Assembly: GCA_005884115.1 (NCBI GenBank)
Contig: VAXW01000004.1
Location: 186,001-250,000, forward strand
Origin: Actinomycetota bacterium
GTDB lineage: Bacteria > Actinomycetota > Thermoleophilia > Solirubrobacterales > Solirubrobacteraceae
DNA: 64,000 nucleotides
Reading direction: 5' to 3'
Part shown: one piece after another, positions 2,798 through 22,655 of the stretch
Numbering within the stretch: the first letter of the stretch is position 1
Layout of the letters: each line of letters begins with the position of its first letter
The notes under the pieces: model-generated
Seen by the model: the letters and a program-made list of their open reading frames with translations, nothing else
What the model was told of the DNA's origin: nothing
Databases searched by the model: none
Program-made: the position numbers and the translations under genes

Positions 2798-3022
2798 ATG
2801 CTCCGAGCCGTGCGCGAGGCGTGCAGGTTCTGCTTGCAGAGGCGCAACCTCCGCAGGACGCTGCGCATCGCGCTCGTGGTGGGTGTCGTCTTGACTCTCA
2901 TCAACCAGGGCGGCGTGATCACGGCCGGTCACGCGACAACCGCGACCTGGGTACGCTGCGGGCTCAATTTTGTCGTGCCGTTCCTGGTGTCAAACGCGGG
3001 CCTGCTGAGCGGACGCAGCTGA
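2798..3022 (+). CDS. nrtS: NrtS-like nitrate/nitrite transporter, small two-helix membrane protein
   Basis: A 74-aa protein with two predicted membrane helices: RTLRIALVVGVVLTLINQGG (about 19-38) and VRCGLNFVVPFLVSNAGLL (about 52-70). The 'R--KIALVVG-ILTLINQG' opening and the 'NFVVPF-VS--G' second helix are the pattern of the NrtS family, short proteins reported to take part in nitrate or nitrite transport. It stands alone, 37 bp after the redoxin-like remnant, with no nitrate assimilation genes nearby. The function is by family resemblance only. Confidence 0.7.
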   Translation: MLRAVREACRFCLQRRNLRRTLRIALVVGVVLTLINQGGVITAGHATTATWVRCGLNFVVPFLVSNAGLLSGRS

Positions 3023-3056
3023 TCAGCTCGTGCCTCTCGCGAGCGCAGTGTGGCGG

Positions 3057-3740
3057 TCAGCGCAGCGTCGCGCGCATGCTCAGCCGGTAGCCGGGCACAC
3101 CTCCTGGCGGAGCGGCGCGGCTCGCGCTAACGCCCTCGACGTAGAGGCGTGGATCAGAGAACAGCGTCACCGCCACTGCAGGCAGCGGAAAGATGCGCGG
3201 CTGCGCGACGAGCCGGCCTTCACGCGGCTGCACGACGGCGTCGAGCGAGGTGGAGATGCCGAACAGGCCGCCCCTGGCGCTCACCTCCACCCTTGCGGCT
3301 TCGCTGCGCAGAAGCCGCACTTCGACGCCGCTCGGGAGCGCCGCATGGAGCGCGGAGTCGCTGAGGAAGGCCTGCGCGGTGAGCTGGTCGCCGCGCTTGC
3401 GCAGCCTGACATCGGACAGCTGCAGTGGACCGAGACGCGCGGCGGCGGCGCTCGCGTCGAGCTTTGCCACCCCGCGCGCTTCGTGCGCGAGTTTGGCGGC
3501 AGAGGCGGGGTTGACGCGCAACGAGCCCGCCCGCAAGCTCACCGAGTCCGCATCGCCCCACAGCAGCTTCACGGCGGGCCAAGCGGAGACGTGCACGCTC
3601 TGCACGCGCCCGTAGCGCGCGACGCGGTCGGAGATTCTGCTGGCTGCGATTCCCGGCAGAAAAAGCTGCGCGAGCACCAGCAGAAGCGCGAGCGCGCCTG
3701 CGATGGCCGCGGCAATTCGCCGTGCTCTGCGCACGGGCAC
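3057..3740 (-). CDS. DUF2993 (LmeA-like) envelope lipid-binding protein
   Basis: A 227-aa protein with an N-terminal signal anchor (RRIAAAIAGALALLLVLAQLF, about 7-27) followed by the DUF2993 layout: an AASRISDRVARYG start, then alternating strands with VSLRAGSLRV, LSDVRLRKRGDQLTAQAFLSD and a late PLPAVAVTLFSDPRLYVEGV. Proteins of this family (LmeA in mycobacteria) bind anionic phospholipids or act in lipoglycan maturation outside the membrane. The start is GTG 3740. It is divergent from tRNA-Val. It could be just a structural lipid-binding protein; the enzymatic role is unproven here. Confidence 0.75.
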   Translation of the reverse strand: MPVRRARRIAAAIAGALALLLVLAQLFLPGIAASRISDRVARYGRVQSVHVSAWPAVKLLWGDADSVSLRAGSLRVNPASAAKLAHEARGVAKLDASAAAARLGPLQLSDVRLRKRGDQLTAQAFLSDSALHAALPSGVEVRLLRSEAARVEVSARGGLFGISTSLDAVVQPREGRLVAQPRIFPLPAVAVTLFSDPRLYVEGVSASRAAPPGGVPGYRLSMRATLR

Positions 3741-18385: not shown

Positions 18386-19036
18386 CTATCCCCCTACGCC
18401 CCGGCCTCGCCCACTGCGCGCGCCCGCGAGGTGCTCGAGGCCCGCCGCGGCCGGATGCGGCCCCAGCTCGCCGGCCGCAAACGAGCGCACCGCCGCGCAC
18501 AGCAGGTCGTGCTCGAGCGGGCGCAGCGCCTCGCGCACCTCGGCCGCGGAGCCCGGCGAGGGGAGCTCGAGCGCTCGCTGCGCGATCACCGGCCCGGTGT
18601 CGACACCCTGATCGACGAAGTGCACGGTCACGCCGAAGACCTTGACGCCGTACTCGAGCGCCTGCTCGATCGCCCGCAGGCCCGGAAAGGCGGGCAGCAG
18701 CGAGGGGTGCACGTTGATCACGCGGCCAGCAAAGCGGGCCAGAAACGGCGTCCCGAGCAGCTCCATGAAGCCCGCGAGCACGACGAGGCGCGCTCCGCGC
18801 AGCGCAAGCCACTCGCCGAGCGCCTCATCGCGTGCGGCGCGGTCGGCGTAGTCGGCGCGCGCGAACACCTCGACGGGAACGCCTGCCGCCTCCGCTCGCG
18901 AGAGCGCGGTCGCGCCGGCCACGCTCGAGGCAACGGCCACGATCTCGGCCTCGCGCCCGTGCACGCGGTCGATGAGCGCCTGCAGGTTCGTGCCGGCGCC
19001 GGATACGAGCACGGCGATGGGGAGCAGCTCGCCCAC
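18386..19036 (-). CDS. purN: Phosphoribosylglycinamide formyltransferase
   Basis: A 216-aa folate-dependent GAR transformylase (third step of purine synthesis). Motifs: IAVLVSGAGTNLQALID at the N-terminus, VVLAGFMELLGTPF, the catalytic INVHPSLLPAFPG near residue 103 and GVTVHFVDQGVDTGPVIAQ. GTG 19036 is chosen because TATGGT lies nine bases upstream. A longer frame reaching an ATG inside the transposon end would be an artefact of the insertion. The CRP-type palindrome at 19054-19069 begins just upstream of the -10 box, so the promoter of purN borders the mobile element. Confidence 0.93.
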   Translation of the reverse strand: MGELLPIAVLVSGAGTNLQALIDRVHGREAEIVAVASSVAGATALSRAEAAGVPVEVFARADYADRAARDEALGEWLALRGARLVVLAGFMELLGTPFLARFAGRVINVHPSLLPAFPGLRAIEQALEYGVKVFGVTVHFVDQGVDTGPVIAQRALELPSPGSAAEVREALRPLEHDLLCAAVRSFAAGELGPHPAAAGLEHLAGARSGRGRGVGG

Positions 19037-19053: not shown

Positions 19054-19069
19054 TGTGAGCTAGCTCACA
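19054..19069. promoter_or_regulatory. CRP/GlxR-type palindrome TGTGAGCTAGCTCACA (left junction copy)
   Basis: A perfect TGTGA-N6-TCACA palindrome, the consensus of E. coli CRP and of actinobacterial CRP/GlxR proteins. It ends four bases upstream of the TATGGT box of purN (minus strand), so it overlaps the -35 region. Its right-hand bases belong to the mobile element end, and its centre is the element's 8-bp target duplication. The pre-insertion site can be rebuilt by removing 19066-22427, which leaves the same palindrome. Confidence 0.6.
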
Positions 19070-19091
19070 TTTGGTCATCCTCTGTATAAGC
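19066..19091 (+). repeat. Left terminal inverted repeat of the mobile element
   Basis: Twenty-six bases, identical to the reverse complement of 22394-22419. The outermost bases are CACATTTGG and the innermost GTATAAGC. Identity stops at 19092. Confidence 0.95.
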
Positions 19092-19160
19092 CGACGGCTC
19101 GCACCCGCCGCGCGGCTATTGACTGCAGAAGTGCGAAAACGCACGATATGGTCTCGTGCC

Positions 19161-19775
19161 GTGGCATCTCGGGACGACCTCAATGCTTGGCTCAGACAGA
19201 GGTTCGCCGTCGTCAGGGCCAAAAGAGGCCGTCGCAGCCTTCTCCGGATGTCGCCGCTCGTGGCGGCCCTGTCCGTCATCGCATATGCCGCGTCGGGAGA
19301 CCTGGAAGGAGGGTCGACGTTCCTTTCTGTTGTCGCCGTTGGGTTCGTCGCTGCGGCGGCGGCGTTGGTTGCTGGCGCCCTCCTCGGATTTCTGTTCGGC
19401 CTTCCACGAGCTGTCGACCAGCCGGGCACAAAAGCTCGCCTACGAACGAACACCAATCTCGACCAGATCTCCGACTGGCTCACGAAGATCCTGGTCGGTC
19501 TTGGGCTGGTTCAGCTAGGCAAAGTCACGCACGGCGTTAGCAACATTGGCCACTCTCTCGCCCCAGGGTTAGGCGATGCACCTGGTGCAAAGCCGTTTGC
19601 AATTGCGCTCCTGGTCTACTCTGCCGGAGATGGCTTTTTGATCGGCTACATCTGGACACGCGTCGACCTCAGCAGACGGTTTCGGGAAGCCGCTGAGGAC
19701 CTCGATCCGATCGAGAGGGCCACCGAAAAGGCGCTGCAAAGGCCGCCGCCTCAGCCGCCCCAGCCTCCCGATTAG
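19161..19775 (+). CDS. Uncharacterised membrane protein (transposon cargo)
   Basis: A 204-aa protein with four hydrophobic segments: about 30-46 (SPLVAALSVIAYAASG), 52-76 (LSVVAVGFVAAAAALVAGALLGFLF), 98-116 and 138-158 (AKPFAIALLVYSAGDGFLIGYIW). The motif GFLFGLPRA followed 20 residues later by NTNLDQISDWLTKILVGLGL looks strongly conserved; I recall similar stretches in membrane proteins of unknown function in varied bacteria but cannot name the family. The C-terminus is Pro-rich and cytoplasmic-looking (QRPPPQPPQPPD). GTG 19161 is the most sensible start; the frame's upstream ATG lies in the inverted repeat. It is followed after two bases by the next gene. Confidence 0.7.
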   Translation: MASRDDLNAWLRQRFAVVRAKRGRRSLLRMSPLVAALSVIAYAASGDLEGGSTFLSVVAVGFVAAAAALVAGALLGFLFGLPRAVDQPGTKARLRTNTNLDQISDWLTKILVGLGLVQLGKVTHGVSNIGHSLAPGLGDAPGAKPFAIALLVYSAGDGFLIGYIWTRVDLSRRFREAAEDLDPIERATEKALQRPPPQPPQPPD

Positions 19776-19777
19776 TT

Positions 19778-20104
19778 GTGGTTGCAGGGCTTTTCGCGCT
19801 GGCCAGATGTCGTGCGCCTCACCCAACCGTCGGATATACACTCCAAGGTATGCAGTGGTCTGAGCTTGAGAGCTATCGGCAGCTTGTAGACAACTACAAC
19901 AGTCGACGCGAGGCGTACGAAAAAGCTCTGACAGCCTGGCGGGAGGCACAGGCGGCAAACACCGGAGACCCCCAGGAGCTTCAGGCGACGAAAGCGAAAC
20001 TGGATGCGGAGTACGCCGACCTCGGCACCCTGCTCGCGAGGATAAACGCGATGCGCAACGAACTCGCTCATGCGCGCGACTCCGCCGTTACTCAGCCGCA
20101 GTAG
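19778..20104 (+). CDS. Small helical protein with a C-terminal RNxxxH motif (transposon cargo)
   Basis: A 108-aa protein, almost wholly helical: WSELESYRQLVDNYNSRREAYEKALTAWREAQAAN, then ELQATKAKLDAEYADLGTLLARINAMRNELAHARD. The RNELAH at residues 93-98 fits the R-N-x3-H (Rx4-6H) active-site pattern of HEPN proteins, but the protein is short for that fold and the match could be chance. GTG 19778 begins two bases after the membrane protein's stop; ATG 19850 (MQWSEL) is an alternative that removes a hydrophobic 24-residue head. The two genes are likely cotranscribed. No family recognised. Confidence 0.55.
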   Translation: MVAGLFALARCRAPHPTVGYTLQGMQWSELESYRQLVDNYNSRREAYEKALTAWREAQAANTGDPQELQATKAKLDAEYADLGTLLARINAMRNELAHARDSAVTQPQ

Positions 20105-20158
20105 CGCGCGCCAGCAGTTCAGCGAACATTGGCGGGTCGCACTGGTAGCCTTGGCCGC

Positions 20159-20329
20159 GTGGCTGAGACCCCGCAGCGCGACGAGCCAAAACAGACCACG
20201 CCCGCAGGCCATCGCATTCCGATCCCCTCGCGCGAGGACTTCGAGCGGATGGTCAGGAAGCTCGTGCCGCCAGCAGGTCGTAAACGCCCTGCCGACTCAG
20301 ACGAGCCTCCCGAGCGATCTGAGCAATAG
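20159..20329 (+). CDS. Small 56-aa protein (transposon cargo), possible antitoxin-like
   Basis: It starts GTG 20159, seven bases after TAGCCT, a leaderless arrangement. The sequence MAETPQRDEPKQTTPAGH, then RIPIPSREDFERMVRKLVPPAGRKRP, is hydrophilic with one amphipathic helix; 'IP-PSR-DF---+-K-A' is a recurring pattern in small actinobacterial proteins of unknown or antitoxin-like role, from memory. Its last 77 bases overlap the convergent helix-turn-helix gene (20253-20459), so one of the two could be spurious, but both have plausible protein sequences. Confidence 0.45.
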   Translation: MAETPQRDEPKQTTPAGHRIPIPSREDFERMVRKLVPPAGRKRPADSDEPPERSEQ

Positions 20330-20459
20330 ACACGCCTTCACGTTGCGCCACGCGTATCTGCTCGCGTAGGTCCTCGGTTGCGGCCTGCCGGAGACCGTCA
20401 GCGTGCTCGCGCCGTCTGGCCGCGCGCCGGATTCTCTTGACCGCCTCAGACTCGCTCAT
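20253..20459 (-). CDS. Small helix-turn-helix protein overlapping the transposase gene
   Basis: A 68-aa protein: MSESEAVKRIRRAARRREHADGLRQAATEDLREQIRVAQREGVSIAQIAREARLSRQGVYDLLAARAS. The last 30 residues (EGVSIAQIAREARLSRQGVYDLL) are a textbook helix-turn-helix. Its ATG lies inside the transposase gene's end: the overlap is 14 bp, with ATGAGCGAGTCTGA shared in two frames. It is probably the DNA-binding partner or repressor of the element and may recognise the two TGTCAA/TTGACA dyads at 21425-21469. The partial overlap with the plus-strand 56-aa gene is noted. Confidence 0.7.
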   Translation of the reverse strand: MSESEAVKRIRRAARRREHADGLRQAATEDLREQIRVAQREGVSIAQIAREARLSRQGVYDLLAARAS

Positions 20460-21423
20460 GCGTAGCCGCGTCCAGAAGCGACTCGAACATCGATGTTGGG
20501 TTGTAGCGCGCGTTCCGCCGCCACACGAACTCGTTGAGATATCCCTGTAGCCAACGGTGCGACACCTTCCGGTAGGTGCCTCGGATCGAGGGCTTGAGAT
20601 GTCCGAAGAACGCCTCGACCGTGTTCGTGTGCGTATTGCCGTCCACGTAGTACCCGGCCGAGTGGTTGATCTGACTATGGTCGATGAAGTGGCGCTTGAG
20701 GCCGTAGTACGCGGGCCAGTCGTCCGTGATGATGATCGACTCTGGCTCGACCCACTTGACAAGCTGGCGTTGTAGGTGTGGCCCATGACGGGACGGCAGC
20801 ACGGTCGCCTTGATGCGTCCACCGCGCTCGACGGCGGCGAACACCGTTGCTCTACTACGCACACGCAGTTTCGCGGCTTCTGAGCGTCGAGAGGGCCCGA
20901 GAGCAATCTGTCGGCGTGGCCCTTGCTTGCGAGGCTTGCCATCGACGGACGCCTCATCCGCCTCTACATCGCCAGAGAGCGGTATACCGTCATCCCTCAT
21001 CAGCTCGTTGCGAATGAGATTGAGCATCCGCCACGCCGTCCGATAGGACACGCCGATCTCGCGCTCAAGCATCTTGGCCGACACTCCGCAGCGAGTGCTG
21101 GTCATCATGTAGATCGCGAAGTACCACAGGTGCAGCGACGTGGAGGACTTCGCGAAGATCGTGCCTGCCGTCGGGTGGACGTGGTGGCCGCAGCCAGTGC
21201 AGGTCCACGATTGGCGTCCTTGAGAAGTCGCGTAGCGCTTGAATACGCGCTCGCGCTCACACTTCGGGCATTCGGCGTGTTCGCCGTCTGGCGAGTAGCG
21301 GGTGCGCCAAAGGTGCTCAAGGCATGCGGCGTCATCCGGGTATTCACGCATGAACTCCATGAGCGAGTAGCCCGAATCCGAGCACGCTGTCCGCGTCGGA
21401 TCGTGGCGGTTGCCTGCGGCCAT
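20446..21423 (-). CDS. IS1595-family (ISXO2-like) transposase
   Basis: A 325-aa DDE transposase. The N-terminal zinc ribbon has CPKC near residue 52 and CTGC near 73, then HHVHPTAGTIFAKSSTSLHLWYFAIYMM, typical of IS1595 transposases. The catalytic core shows GDVEADEASVDGKPRK (first Asp), IIITDDWPAYYGLKRH (second Asp), and HTNTVEAFFGHLKPSIRGTYRKVS (Glu and conserved ISXO2 tail), ending LQGYLNEFVWRRNAR. Nothing is truncated. ATG 21423 is six bases downstream of TATATT and has no ribosome binding site, so the mRNA is leaderless. Two operator-like dyads overlap this promoter. Confidence 0.93.
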   Translation of the reverse strand: MAAGNRHDPTRTACSDSGYSLMEFMREYPDDAACLEHLWRTRYSPDGEHAECPKCERERVFKRYATSQGRQSWTCTGCGHHVHPTAGTIFAKSSTSLHLWYFAIYMMTSTRCGVSAKMLEREIGVSYRTAWRMLNLIRNELMRDDGIPLSGDVEADEASVDGKPRKQGPRRQIALGPSRRSEAAKLRVRSRATVFAAVERGGRIKATVLPSRHGPHLQRQLVKWVEPESIIITDDWPAYYGLKRHFIDHSQINHSAGYYVDGNTHTNTVEAFFGHLKPSIRGTYRKVSHRWLQGYLNEFVWRRNARYNPTSMFESLLDAATHERV

Positions 21424-21424
21424 A

Positions 21425-21443
21425 CTGTCAATATACTTGACAG
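21425..21443. promoter_or_regulatory. Operator-like dyad CTGTCAA-N5-TTGACAG over the transposase -10 box
   Basis: Perfect 7-bp arms around TATAC. It covers the TATATT -10 box of the transposase promoter (minus strand; the -10 reads AATATA at 21430-21435 on plus). Its centre is 27 bp from that of the second dyad, so both may be contacted by the same regulator. Confidence 0.7.
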
Positions 21444-21458
21444 CGGGTCGAGTGTCAA
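21430..21458 (-). promoter_or_regulatory. Consensus sigma70-type promoter of the transposase gene
   Basis: On the minus strand: TTGACA (21458-21453), 17-bp spacer, TATATT (21435-21430), then six bases to the ATG at 21423. This is an almost perfect housekeeping promoter, very unlike the GC-rich surroundings. Both hexamers lie in operator dyads, implying tight repression. Confidence 0.75.
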
Positions 21459-21469
21459 GGCTCTTGACA
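21453..21469. promoter_or_regulatory. Operator-like dyad TGTCAAG-GCT-CTTGACA shared by two divergent promoters
   Basis: A perfect 17-bp palindrome. Its left arm holds the -35 hexamer of the transposase promoter and its right arm holds TTGACA (21464-21469), the -35 of the plus-strand promoter, which has TAGGCT (21488-21493) 18 bp further and the GTG start at 21500 six bases after. One protein bound here would shut off both transcripts. Confidence 0.7.
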
Positions 21470-21499
21470 GATTTACTCCGGAGTGAATAGGCTCGGCAT

Positions 21500-22366
21500 G
21501 TGCGCGGGAGCCTCGAAGGGCCAATCGCGAAGCTTGCGCGGGCAGAGCGCCAGTTTCGAGTACTTGAGCGTGAGATCGGGAAGCTCTGGCCTCCAGGCCA
21601 TGCATGGCCCGTTCGGACCAAGATAGACCGGGGCGGACTTGAGTACCGCTTCTACCTGGGCGAGCTGCCCGCTATTGAACCCGACTGGACGTTGGCTATG
21701 GGAGAGGTCCTTTTTGACCTTCGCTCCGCCCTCGACCATCTCGCCTGGGAGCTTCATGTCCGGCACTACGGTCGCCGGACGATCCCCCGAAAGGTCGAGT
21801 TCGCCAGTCAGTTCCCGATCTTCGACACCAAGACCGACTTCATCAATAAAGGTCGGCGCCGCATCAAGGAGCTTGGCCAGCGCGAGCGGCGGGCCGTCCG
21901 CGTGCTCCAGCCATACGAGGGTCGGAACGACAAGTGGCGACTCGTGCGTTCCGACCTGTCGATGCTCAATTCCTTGCACAACATCGACAAGCACCGTCAG
22001 CTCCATGTCGTAGTGGGCGCGCATCAAGCAGCGGTCGAGCCGAACTACGCGCCTGAGTTTGGGTTTCACATGACGCCGATGTGGGGCCGCGTGAAACCAC
22101 ATGCTCACGTCGAGACGTGGACCTTCGCCAAGGCACCACCCAAGATCGAGCCGCACCACGGAGCGTTCCTTGCGATATGCCTCGACTACATGGGAGAGGA
22201 GTGGCCCCTGCTCCCGATGCTTGGAGGACTTATGACGAGCGTGGCGGCCGTTCTTCGCCGGTTCGCCAACCGCTTTCCGCCCACGAATCCGCCTAGCTGG
22301 AGCCGATACACCGGCCACTGGTGGAAGGGGGCGCGGGGGTACCGGGGCGGCCCCAAGCTCGTTTAA
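21500..22366 (+). CDS. Uncharacterised protein with HEPN-like Rx4H motif (transposon cargo)
   Basis: A 288-aa soluble protein. A helical start (AERQFRVLEREIGKL) is followed by a beta segment and then VLFDLRSALDHLAWELHV, where Arg75 and His80 form an R-x4-H pattern as in HEPN nucleases. A second conserved-looking block is LSMLNSLHNIDKHRQLHVVV near residue 155. I recall a widespread family of unknown function with 'DLRSALDHLAWQL' and 'NIDKHR', but cannot name it. The GTG start has TAGGCT six bases upstream and TTGACA 18 bp before that, so it is leaderless and divergent from the transposase, sharing its operators. It is the right-end cargo gene of the element. Confidence 0.7.
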   Translation: MRGSLEGPIAKLARAERQFRVLEREIGKLWPPGHAWPVRTKIDRGGLEYRFYLGELPAIEPDWTLAMGEVLFDLRSALDHLAWELHVRHYGRRTIPRKVEFASQFPIFDTKTDFINKGRRRIKELGQRERRAVRVLQPYEGRNDKWRLVRSDLSMLNSLHNIDKHRQLHVVVGAHQAAVEPNYAPEFGFHMTPMWGRVKPHAHVETWTFAKAPPKIEPHHGAFLAICLDYMGEEWPLLPMLGGLMTSVAAVLRRFANRFPPTNPPSWSRYTGHWWKGARGYRGGPKLV

Positions 22367-22393
22367 GCGGGGGCGCATCTCAGCGCTGTGCTC

Positions 22394-22419
22394 GCTTATA
22401 CAGAGGATGACCAAATGTG
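22394..22419 (-). repeat. Right terminal inverted repeat of the mobile element
   Basis: Twenty-six bases, exact reverse complement of the left repeat at 19066-19091. Its outer end ATGTG abuts the AGCTAGCT target duplication at 22420-22427. Confidence 0.95.
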
Positions 22420-22431
22420 AGCTAGCTCACA
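22416..22431. promoter_or_regulatory. CRP/GlxR-type palindrome TGTGAGCTAGCTCACA (right junction copy)
   Basis: The second copy of the palindrome, made of the element's terminal TGTG, the AGCTAGCT duplication and the host CACA. It lies 75 bp before the small gene at 22506 and could still act on that gene, as the single ancestral site may have served both directions. Confidence 0.55.
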
Positions 22432-22448: not shown

Positions 22449-22499
22449 GTCCTTCAATGAAAGGTGCTGGGCGGAGAGGGCAACGCCCAACCAAAGGAC
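22449..22499 (+). promoter_or_regulatory. Structured 5' leader able to mask the ribosome binding site
   Basis: GTCCTT (22449-22454) can pair with AAGGAC (22494-22499), which contains the ribosome binding site of the gene at 22506. Nested inside are GGT/ACC (22463-22465 with 22490-22492) and TGGGCG/CGCCCA (22468-22473 with 22484-22489). Alternatively CCTT (22451-22454) can pair with AAGG (22461-22464), which would free the site. Two exclusive pairings of one strand are the mark of a translational switch. No known riboswitch class is recognised. Confidence 0.45.
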
Positions 22500-22505
22500 A
22501 ACACC

Positions 22506-22655
22506 ATGCTCACAGCCATTATCGTCACCGCCACCATCGTCGGCACGCTCGGCTACGCGCTGGGCATCGGTCGTCGCGACTCCTCGATCCTGCGCCGGCC
22601 CTACAACAACCGCTATAACGCCGCATCCGGCGCGCGCGAGGAGTCTTTCAGCTAG
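22506..22655 (+). CDS. Very small single-span membrane protein
   Basis: A 49-aa protein: a hydrophobic N-terminal helix TAIIVTATIVGTLGYALGIG (residues 3-22) followed by a basic, polar tail RRDSSILRRPYNNRYNAASGAREESFS. AAAGGAC lies six bases before the ATG. It sits between the mobile element and convergent purF. No family recognised. Because its leader can fold to hide its ribosome binding site and a CRP-type palindrome lies upstream, it is likely a regulated gene rather than a chance frame. Confidence 0.6.
   Translation: MLTAIIVTATIVGTLGYALGIGRRDSSILRRPYNNRYNAASGAREESFS

Follow-up and report, generated by a model that had tools for sequence, protein, structure and literature searches.

An IS1595-family transposon with passenger genes, inserted in a CRP/FNR-type palindrome beside purN in a Solirubrobacteraceae genome

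Some members of the IS1595 family of insertion sequences carry passenger genes, and elements of the IS1397 type insert into repeated extragenic palindromes. Here we describe an IS1595-family transposon with passengers that lies between purF and purN in a 64,000-nucleotide stretch (the window) of contig VAXW01000004.1, from assembly GCA_005884115.1 of an actinomycetotal bacterium of the Solirubrobacteraceae. The element very probably represents a lineage that uses CRP/FNR-type operators as insertion sites and whose tips rebuild the operator. Direct support comes from its anatomy, from empty sites in relatives, from the repetition of the same target in many copies, and from tips that belong to the element rather than to the host.

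The element resembles described IS1595 (ISXO2-like) elements in its transposase domains, its 8-bp duplication, the alignment of its inner ends with those of relatives, and its passenger genes. Unlike them, this lineage inserts into CRP-type palindromes and has operator-like CACA tips. It shares a palindromic intergenic target with the IS1397 type; that type enters a repeat, where no regulator operator is restored by the element's tips. The prokaryotic Mutator-like DDE elements TnGBS, ISLre2 and ISKra4 aim at promoter regions, which has been explained as limiting host cost; TnGBS and its relatives enter at 15-17 bp from the -35 box of sigmaA promoters, on its upstream side (PMC3942029). These are likewise DDE elements with targets in regulatory regions; they belong to another transposase superfamily, and operator rebuilding is not described in the part of that account consulted (PMC3942029). 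In the literature searched, with most subscription papers outside it, we found no report of IS1595 elements that target CRP or LexA sites.

Element anatomy, target palindrome and empty sites

The element spans 3,354 bp between the duplications and has a G+C content of 62%, against 70% for the window. Its terminal inverted repeats (19066-19091, + strand, and 22394-22419, - strand) are 26 bp long, match perfectly and each end in a CACA tip. They are bounded by the 8-bp direct repeat AGCTAGCT at 19058-19065 and 22420-22427; relatives were delimited with the same duplication length. The intact transposase of 325 aa (20446-21423, - strand) matches the Pfam model DDE_Tnp_IS1595 above cut-off (1.2e-36) and the NCBIfam IS1595 model NF033547 (3.4e-51, 174.2 bits, cut-off 75), and its zinc-ribbon model score falls under the cut-off (22.2 versus 25.4). 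This transposase, the 8-bp duplication and family-type inverted ends all place the element in IS1595. Its closest named transposase relatives, among the best matches kept, are in Solirubrobacteraceae metagenome-assembled genomes (84 and 82% identity). The genome analysed (3.14 Mb, 10 contigs) is 87.8% complete and holds one copy of the element, with a single occurrence of its ends (searched with up to 3 mismatches) and of its transposase.

Compared by eye, the inner part of the ends resembles the GGTAAxTATCCCTTGAC-TGTATAAGC of relatives, and the outer tip differs. We rejected the subterminal TGTATAAGC as a promoter, since it is common to elements with other targets; judging from the alignment of ends, it is more likely a transposase site.

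A 16-bp palindrome, TGTGAGCTAGCTCACA, has the duplicated AGCTAGCT as its core and is complete at both junctions (19054-19069 and 22416-22431). At the left junction the outer TGTG comes from the host and the inner CACA is the element tip; at the right junction the outer CACA is host sequence and the inner TGTG is the tip. The element thus occupies the centre of a TGTGA-N6-TCACA palindrome, which we take to be a CRP/FNR-type operator, and its CACA tips restore the palindrome on both sides. When the flanking palindrome is included the arms are 38 nt long and 100% complementary. The initial annotation had described a complete IS1595 element with 26-bp termini, 8-bp duplication and intact transposase inside a block of purine genes, a description that holds in each part, with purH, purN and purF supported by Pfam; the palindrome surrounding the duplication had gone unseen.

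An order-2 Markov control of the window predicts 0.05 exact occurrences of TGTGA-N6-TCACA per 64 kb. The genome holds four, including the two junctions, and 24 genomes of the genus together hold 76 (duplicated junctions included) versus 3 of the reversed pattern. One of six HTH_Crp_2 matches in the host exceeds the Pfam cut-off and belongs to a Crp-family regulator (cNMP_binding plus HTH_Crp_2), whose S-R-E-x-x-x-R helix presumably resembles that of E. coli CRP. The sequence match of the junction palindrome and the presence of this gene suggest that the host Crp-family protein may bind the palindrome.

Genomes of the genus mostly preserve the site without the element. Of 30 purN loci, 21 were used (G011 enters twice), and in 18 of these rows the purF-purN gap was readable as far as purN. 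Over the 200 bp upstream of that gene, the palindrome is exact in 11 of these, has one mismatch in three and two mismatches in one, and is absent from three. The earlier proposal of a single mobile unit, with uninterrupted sites in relatives, is borne out by these palindromes. Genome G018 carries a related element (transposase 82% identical) in the palindrome upstream of a TlyA-like gene with FtsJ and S4 domains, and its purN palindrome is empty. At the tlyA position our genome has an empty palindrome, TGTGACGTTAATCACA. As purN is occupied here and empty in G018, and tlyA the reverse, the two genomes serve as reciprocal empty-site controls. Across the 22 of 25 tlyA loci used, the upstream palindrome is exact in 12 (including the occupied G018), has one mismatch in four and is absent within 350 bp in six; for one of these six, G014, an exact copy does lie 4 bp past the tlyA match. 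In G018 the inner six bases, GCTTGC, are the same in the purN palindrome and the occupied tlyA palindrome, probably by chance.

On the left, 29 bp separate the junction from the start of purN (18386-19036, - strand). A small conserved gene (22464-22655, + strand) diverges from the site on its opposite side, and a later ATG at 22507 would give a 49-aa product. The version at 22507-22655 had no match in Pfam; by eye, it is also kept between purF and purN in relatives of the genus and ends in RPYNNRYN-ASGARE.

Related elements and their targets

A scan of 84,980 species genomes gave 186 relatives of the transposase, of which the best 80 were kept, representing 79 loci. Further searches covered the genomes of relatives (61), the class (399) and the order (232), from which chosen matches were taken and repeat loci removed by hand. 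The assembled set contains 98 transposase loci, 58 of them delimited. Nine of the 98, whose earlier best matches were chance-like, had been set aside before delimiting (L088, L104, L110, L113, L115, L116, L117, L120 and L121). The automated procedure looked for an 8-bp repeat beside inverted ends starting with GG, CAC, GACA or CGCG and ignored the host flanks. Of the 16 CAC-tip elements it located 15; the remaining one, L080, was positioned manually on the basis of its duplicated palindrome. L081 is counted as a CAC-tip element although its left tip is GACA; the CAC-tip copies L103, L014 and L190, with only one end visible, are outside the 16.

All 16 CAC-tip elements have flanks that read GTG, 8 bp, CAC, with perfect TGTG/CACA in 14, whereas none of 42 elements with other tips comes within three mismatches of TGTG/CACA flanks. 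The element beside purN, with TGTG-N8-CACA flanks, falls within this lineage. The first base of the core is A in 14 of the 16, and the last base is T in 15. Among 89,060 control positions taken from these host flanks, TGTG-N8-CACA has no exact occurrence, 12 with at most one mismatch and 175 with at most two. This scarcity bears on the idea that insertion is nearly random and that only copies in operators survive, the operator being rebuilt there. Operator-rebuilding tips should indeed make such insertions mild, but exact sites are missing from the control positions, intergenic sites free of operators should survive too, and related elements, several in the same bacterial class, persist at many other sites. 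We therefore consider near-random insertion with survival very improbable.

The tips belong to the element and the duplication is 8 bp long, because CACG tips adjoin host TGTG/CACA in L118 and L237, so that the fourth base is not duplicated, because L081 has a GACA left tip, and because in relatives whose tips are GG the alignment puts the edge of the duplication at the same place. A 16-bp target duplication was rejected, as the CACG tips of L118 and L237 differ from the TGTG/CACA of the host. The same tips speak against a palindrome that the element itself carries at both ends through site-specific recombination, an explanation suggested by the full 16 bp at each end here but highly implausible given that the inner six bases vary between elements while agreeing between both ends of each, and that relatives have the palindrome without the element.

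In the transposase tree, the CRP-type transposases form one clade of 21 rows (support 100/98), comprising 19 of CRP type (16 with both ends, 3 with one end), a tandem copy, L239a, and the exception L095. Ten transposase positions, including 187R and 257G, separate this clade from the others and are candidates only. L239a and L239b lie head to head across a single palindrome made up of one tip from each, which means that the palindrome at a junction can become a target in its turn. At both L239 and L046, two CRP-type elements or ends are adjacent around palindromes, as if the junction had been reused. A simple gene finder placed 12 of 13 sites between predicted genes, and the palindrome of L189 overlaps the stop codon of the upstream gene. 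Neighbours of CRP-type sites include purN, a tlyA-like gene, and genes for a WS/DGAT acyltransferase, an MMPL transporter, a transglycosylase-like protein, a DPBB protein and a Rieske protein.

Eight elements from neighbouring lineages adjoin, at 4-7 bp, a second type of operator, GAAC-N4-GTTC, which is presumably the SOS box of Gram-positive LexA. The box is 4 bp away in L082, L087, L097, L098 and L043, 4 bp away with one mismatch in L083, and 7 bp away in L100; L088 has it at 4 bp, with its LexA type assigned from the right end only. No exact LexA box was found within the 24 bp examined on each side of the other 51 delimited elements. One-mismatch boxes near the CRP-type L081 (7 bp) and L118 (12 bp) are probably due to chance. 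In 40,679 host-flank positions, covering seven of the eight elements, there are 10 exact LexA boxes, all within 27 bp of a junction. An ImuB-like gene lies downstream of four of the eight sites (one was tested with Pfam and has an IMS domain, the rest were recognized by sequence similarity), and the remaining four have differing surroundings. The eight LexA-type rows are not a single clade in the transposase tree. The unassigned L089 (transposase at 2800-3726) has an exact LexA-type box some 30 bp away from its left tip, on the outer side.

Of the 34 delimited elements that remain and have sufficient flank, four show symmetry at five or more of six flank bases, versus 0.26 expected, a hint of further palindromic targets. 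By eye, L197 (genome G272) is inserted in the perfect palindrome CCTAGTAACA-GAC-TGTTACTAGG with a 9-bp repeat. Five acidobacterial elements (L122, L127, L128, L132 and L150), also compared by eye, seemingly have a common long target around the duplication, which reads AAGTCCTT...TCAAAGA and CTAAGTC...GATTC.

Several observations weigh against a lineage specialized on CRP/FNR-type operators. Forty of the 98 loci stayed undelimited. One row within the clade, L095, has GG tips and a site that is not palindromic; its placement there is weak (87/70). The eight flanking bases contain two mismatches in L192 and one in L240, and A or T is missing from 3 of the 16 cores. In L239b the tip of a neighbouring copy forms the left flank and hides the original host bases. 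L084 and L085 have transposases that are 88% identical and both lie near an MMPL-like gene, so some insertions may share ancestry. Exact palindromes are few, from one to six in each of the 24 genomes, which is fewer than expected for a broad regulon. Finally, this genome has no excess of the looser pattern TGTG-N8-CACA (11, of which two are the junctions, versus 16 reversed).

Passenger genes

Five genes accompany the transposase. The four on the opposite strand encode a predicted membrane protein of 204 aa (19161-19775, +; membrane nature judged by inspection of its sequence), a helical protein of 108 aa (19778-20104, +), a conserved small protein of 66 aa with the motif QxT-GxxIPxPxRxxF (20129-20329, +; profile search) and a 288-aa protein of a passenger family conserved in this IS1595 branch (21500-22366, +). 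The fifth encodes a helix-turn-helix protein of 68 aa (20253-20459, -) that overlaps the 3' end of the transposase gene. The initial annotation had listed the four opposite-strand genes, which exist, but overlooked the helix-turn-helix gene on the transposase strand.

Passengers were counted by iterated profile search (E up to 0.001), for undelimited loci among open reading frames of at least 40 aa within 2.5 kb on each side. Every one of the 16 CAC-tip elements encodes the 66-aa protein, which was found in 58 of the 98 loci overall; the 288-aa family is present in 41 loci, 8 of the 16 CAC-tip elements among them. Both are typical of this IS1595 lineage. Among the 98 loci, this copy is the only one in which the 204-aa and 108-aa proteins were found. 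The cargo had been said to match no known resistance or metabolic cassette; it is not odd throughout, as only these two proteins are particular to this copy and the other pair recurs. The 68-aa protein, in 10 of the 98 loci, was rejected as a target selector: it occurs in 8 of the 16 CAC-tip elements and was not found in the other 8.

The cargo had also been read as a module for defence, toxicity or addiction carried by a simple transposon, a reading compatible with the target finding and, in our view, possible though doubtful. In its favour, sister elements with CAC tips carry a PIN protein (L199), SocA/Panacea and HTH_3 proteins (L189) and, as further cargo, a DUF5343 protein (L084). By eye, L090 and L239b carry Cys/His proteins that look HNH-like, that of L090 without a Pfam match. 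The 108-aa protein matches the end of a CARF-HEPN model in PADLOC (4.4e-5, 21 bits) and, more weakly, Csx1 and DrmD; we distrust the CARF-HEPN match because the matching stretch is a plain charged helix. The Rx4H stretch noted earlier in the 288-aa protein, of the Rx4-6H kind expected of a HEPN ribonuclease, is present here, yet its His is replaced in several of 34 homologues and so is not invariant; G68, P106, D163 and H165 are. Profile searches with the 288-aa protein gave no match in NCBIfam, PHROGs or PDB sequences (E up to 5) and one sub-threshold match in Pfam (0.02), that is, none above a family cut-off. Compared with PADLOC, the 34 homologues matched three models weakly, with one member each (0.022-0.048). 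Given the domains in sister elements, the passengers of the CAC-tip lineage may include addiction or defence genes.

Target choice and operator rebuilding

How the palindrome is found could involve the host. Under this explanation, a CRP-family protein bound to its operator would tether the transposase, which would not itself read the DNA. Three observations fit: both A and T are present in 13 of 16 cores, compared with 3 of 10 pre-insertion TGTG-N8-CACA sites of this genome; the sites mostly lie close upstream of a predicted gene; and neighbouring lineages insert beside LexA boxes, so that regulator operators recur as targets. However, the joins in the CRP group fall inside the operator, where a bound dimer would be expected to cover the DNA, and the tips match the half-site, as would fit recognition of DNA by the transposase. 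On balance we regard tethering as unlikely, and infer that the transposase itself reads the palindrome rather than a bound regulator.

With the transposase reading the palindrome, insertion would proceed as follows. The transposase would join one element end to either edge of the A-N6-T core, with 8 bp between the joins, and gap repair would copy the core, leaving the 8-bp duplication. The CAC(A) tips would supply the other operator half, so that each junction would read TGTGA-N6-TCACA again. Host genes on both sides would keep an operator and the element would gain one per end. Such restoration would presumably spare the host, and at this locus purN and the divergent small gene would probably both stay regulated.

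A wider reading is plausible though still tentative: operators of global regulators may have been turned into attachment sites by a branch of IS1595 transposons found in Thermoleophilia and allies, with insertion inside the operator for CRP in one clade and 4-7 bp off for LexA in neighbouring lineages. The tips of the CRP clade would have evolved into operator halves, so that the switch is duplicated intact, neighbouring genes stay regulated and the passengers come under host control.

Target choice by transposases is a long-standing question, and related transposases that hit the operators of two regulators, in hits readily confirmed from sequence, make it traceable to residues and tips. The sites also provide precise candidate integration sites in a little-studied bacterial class. 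Operator-like ends may connect the element to host control, and by restoring the site that it enters, an element would have a clear means of lowering harm to the host.

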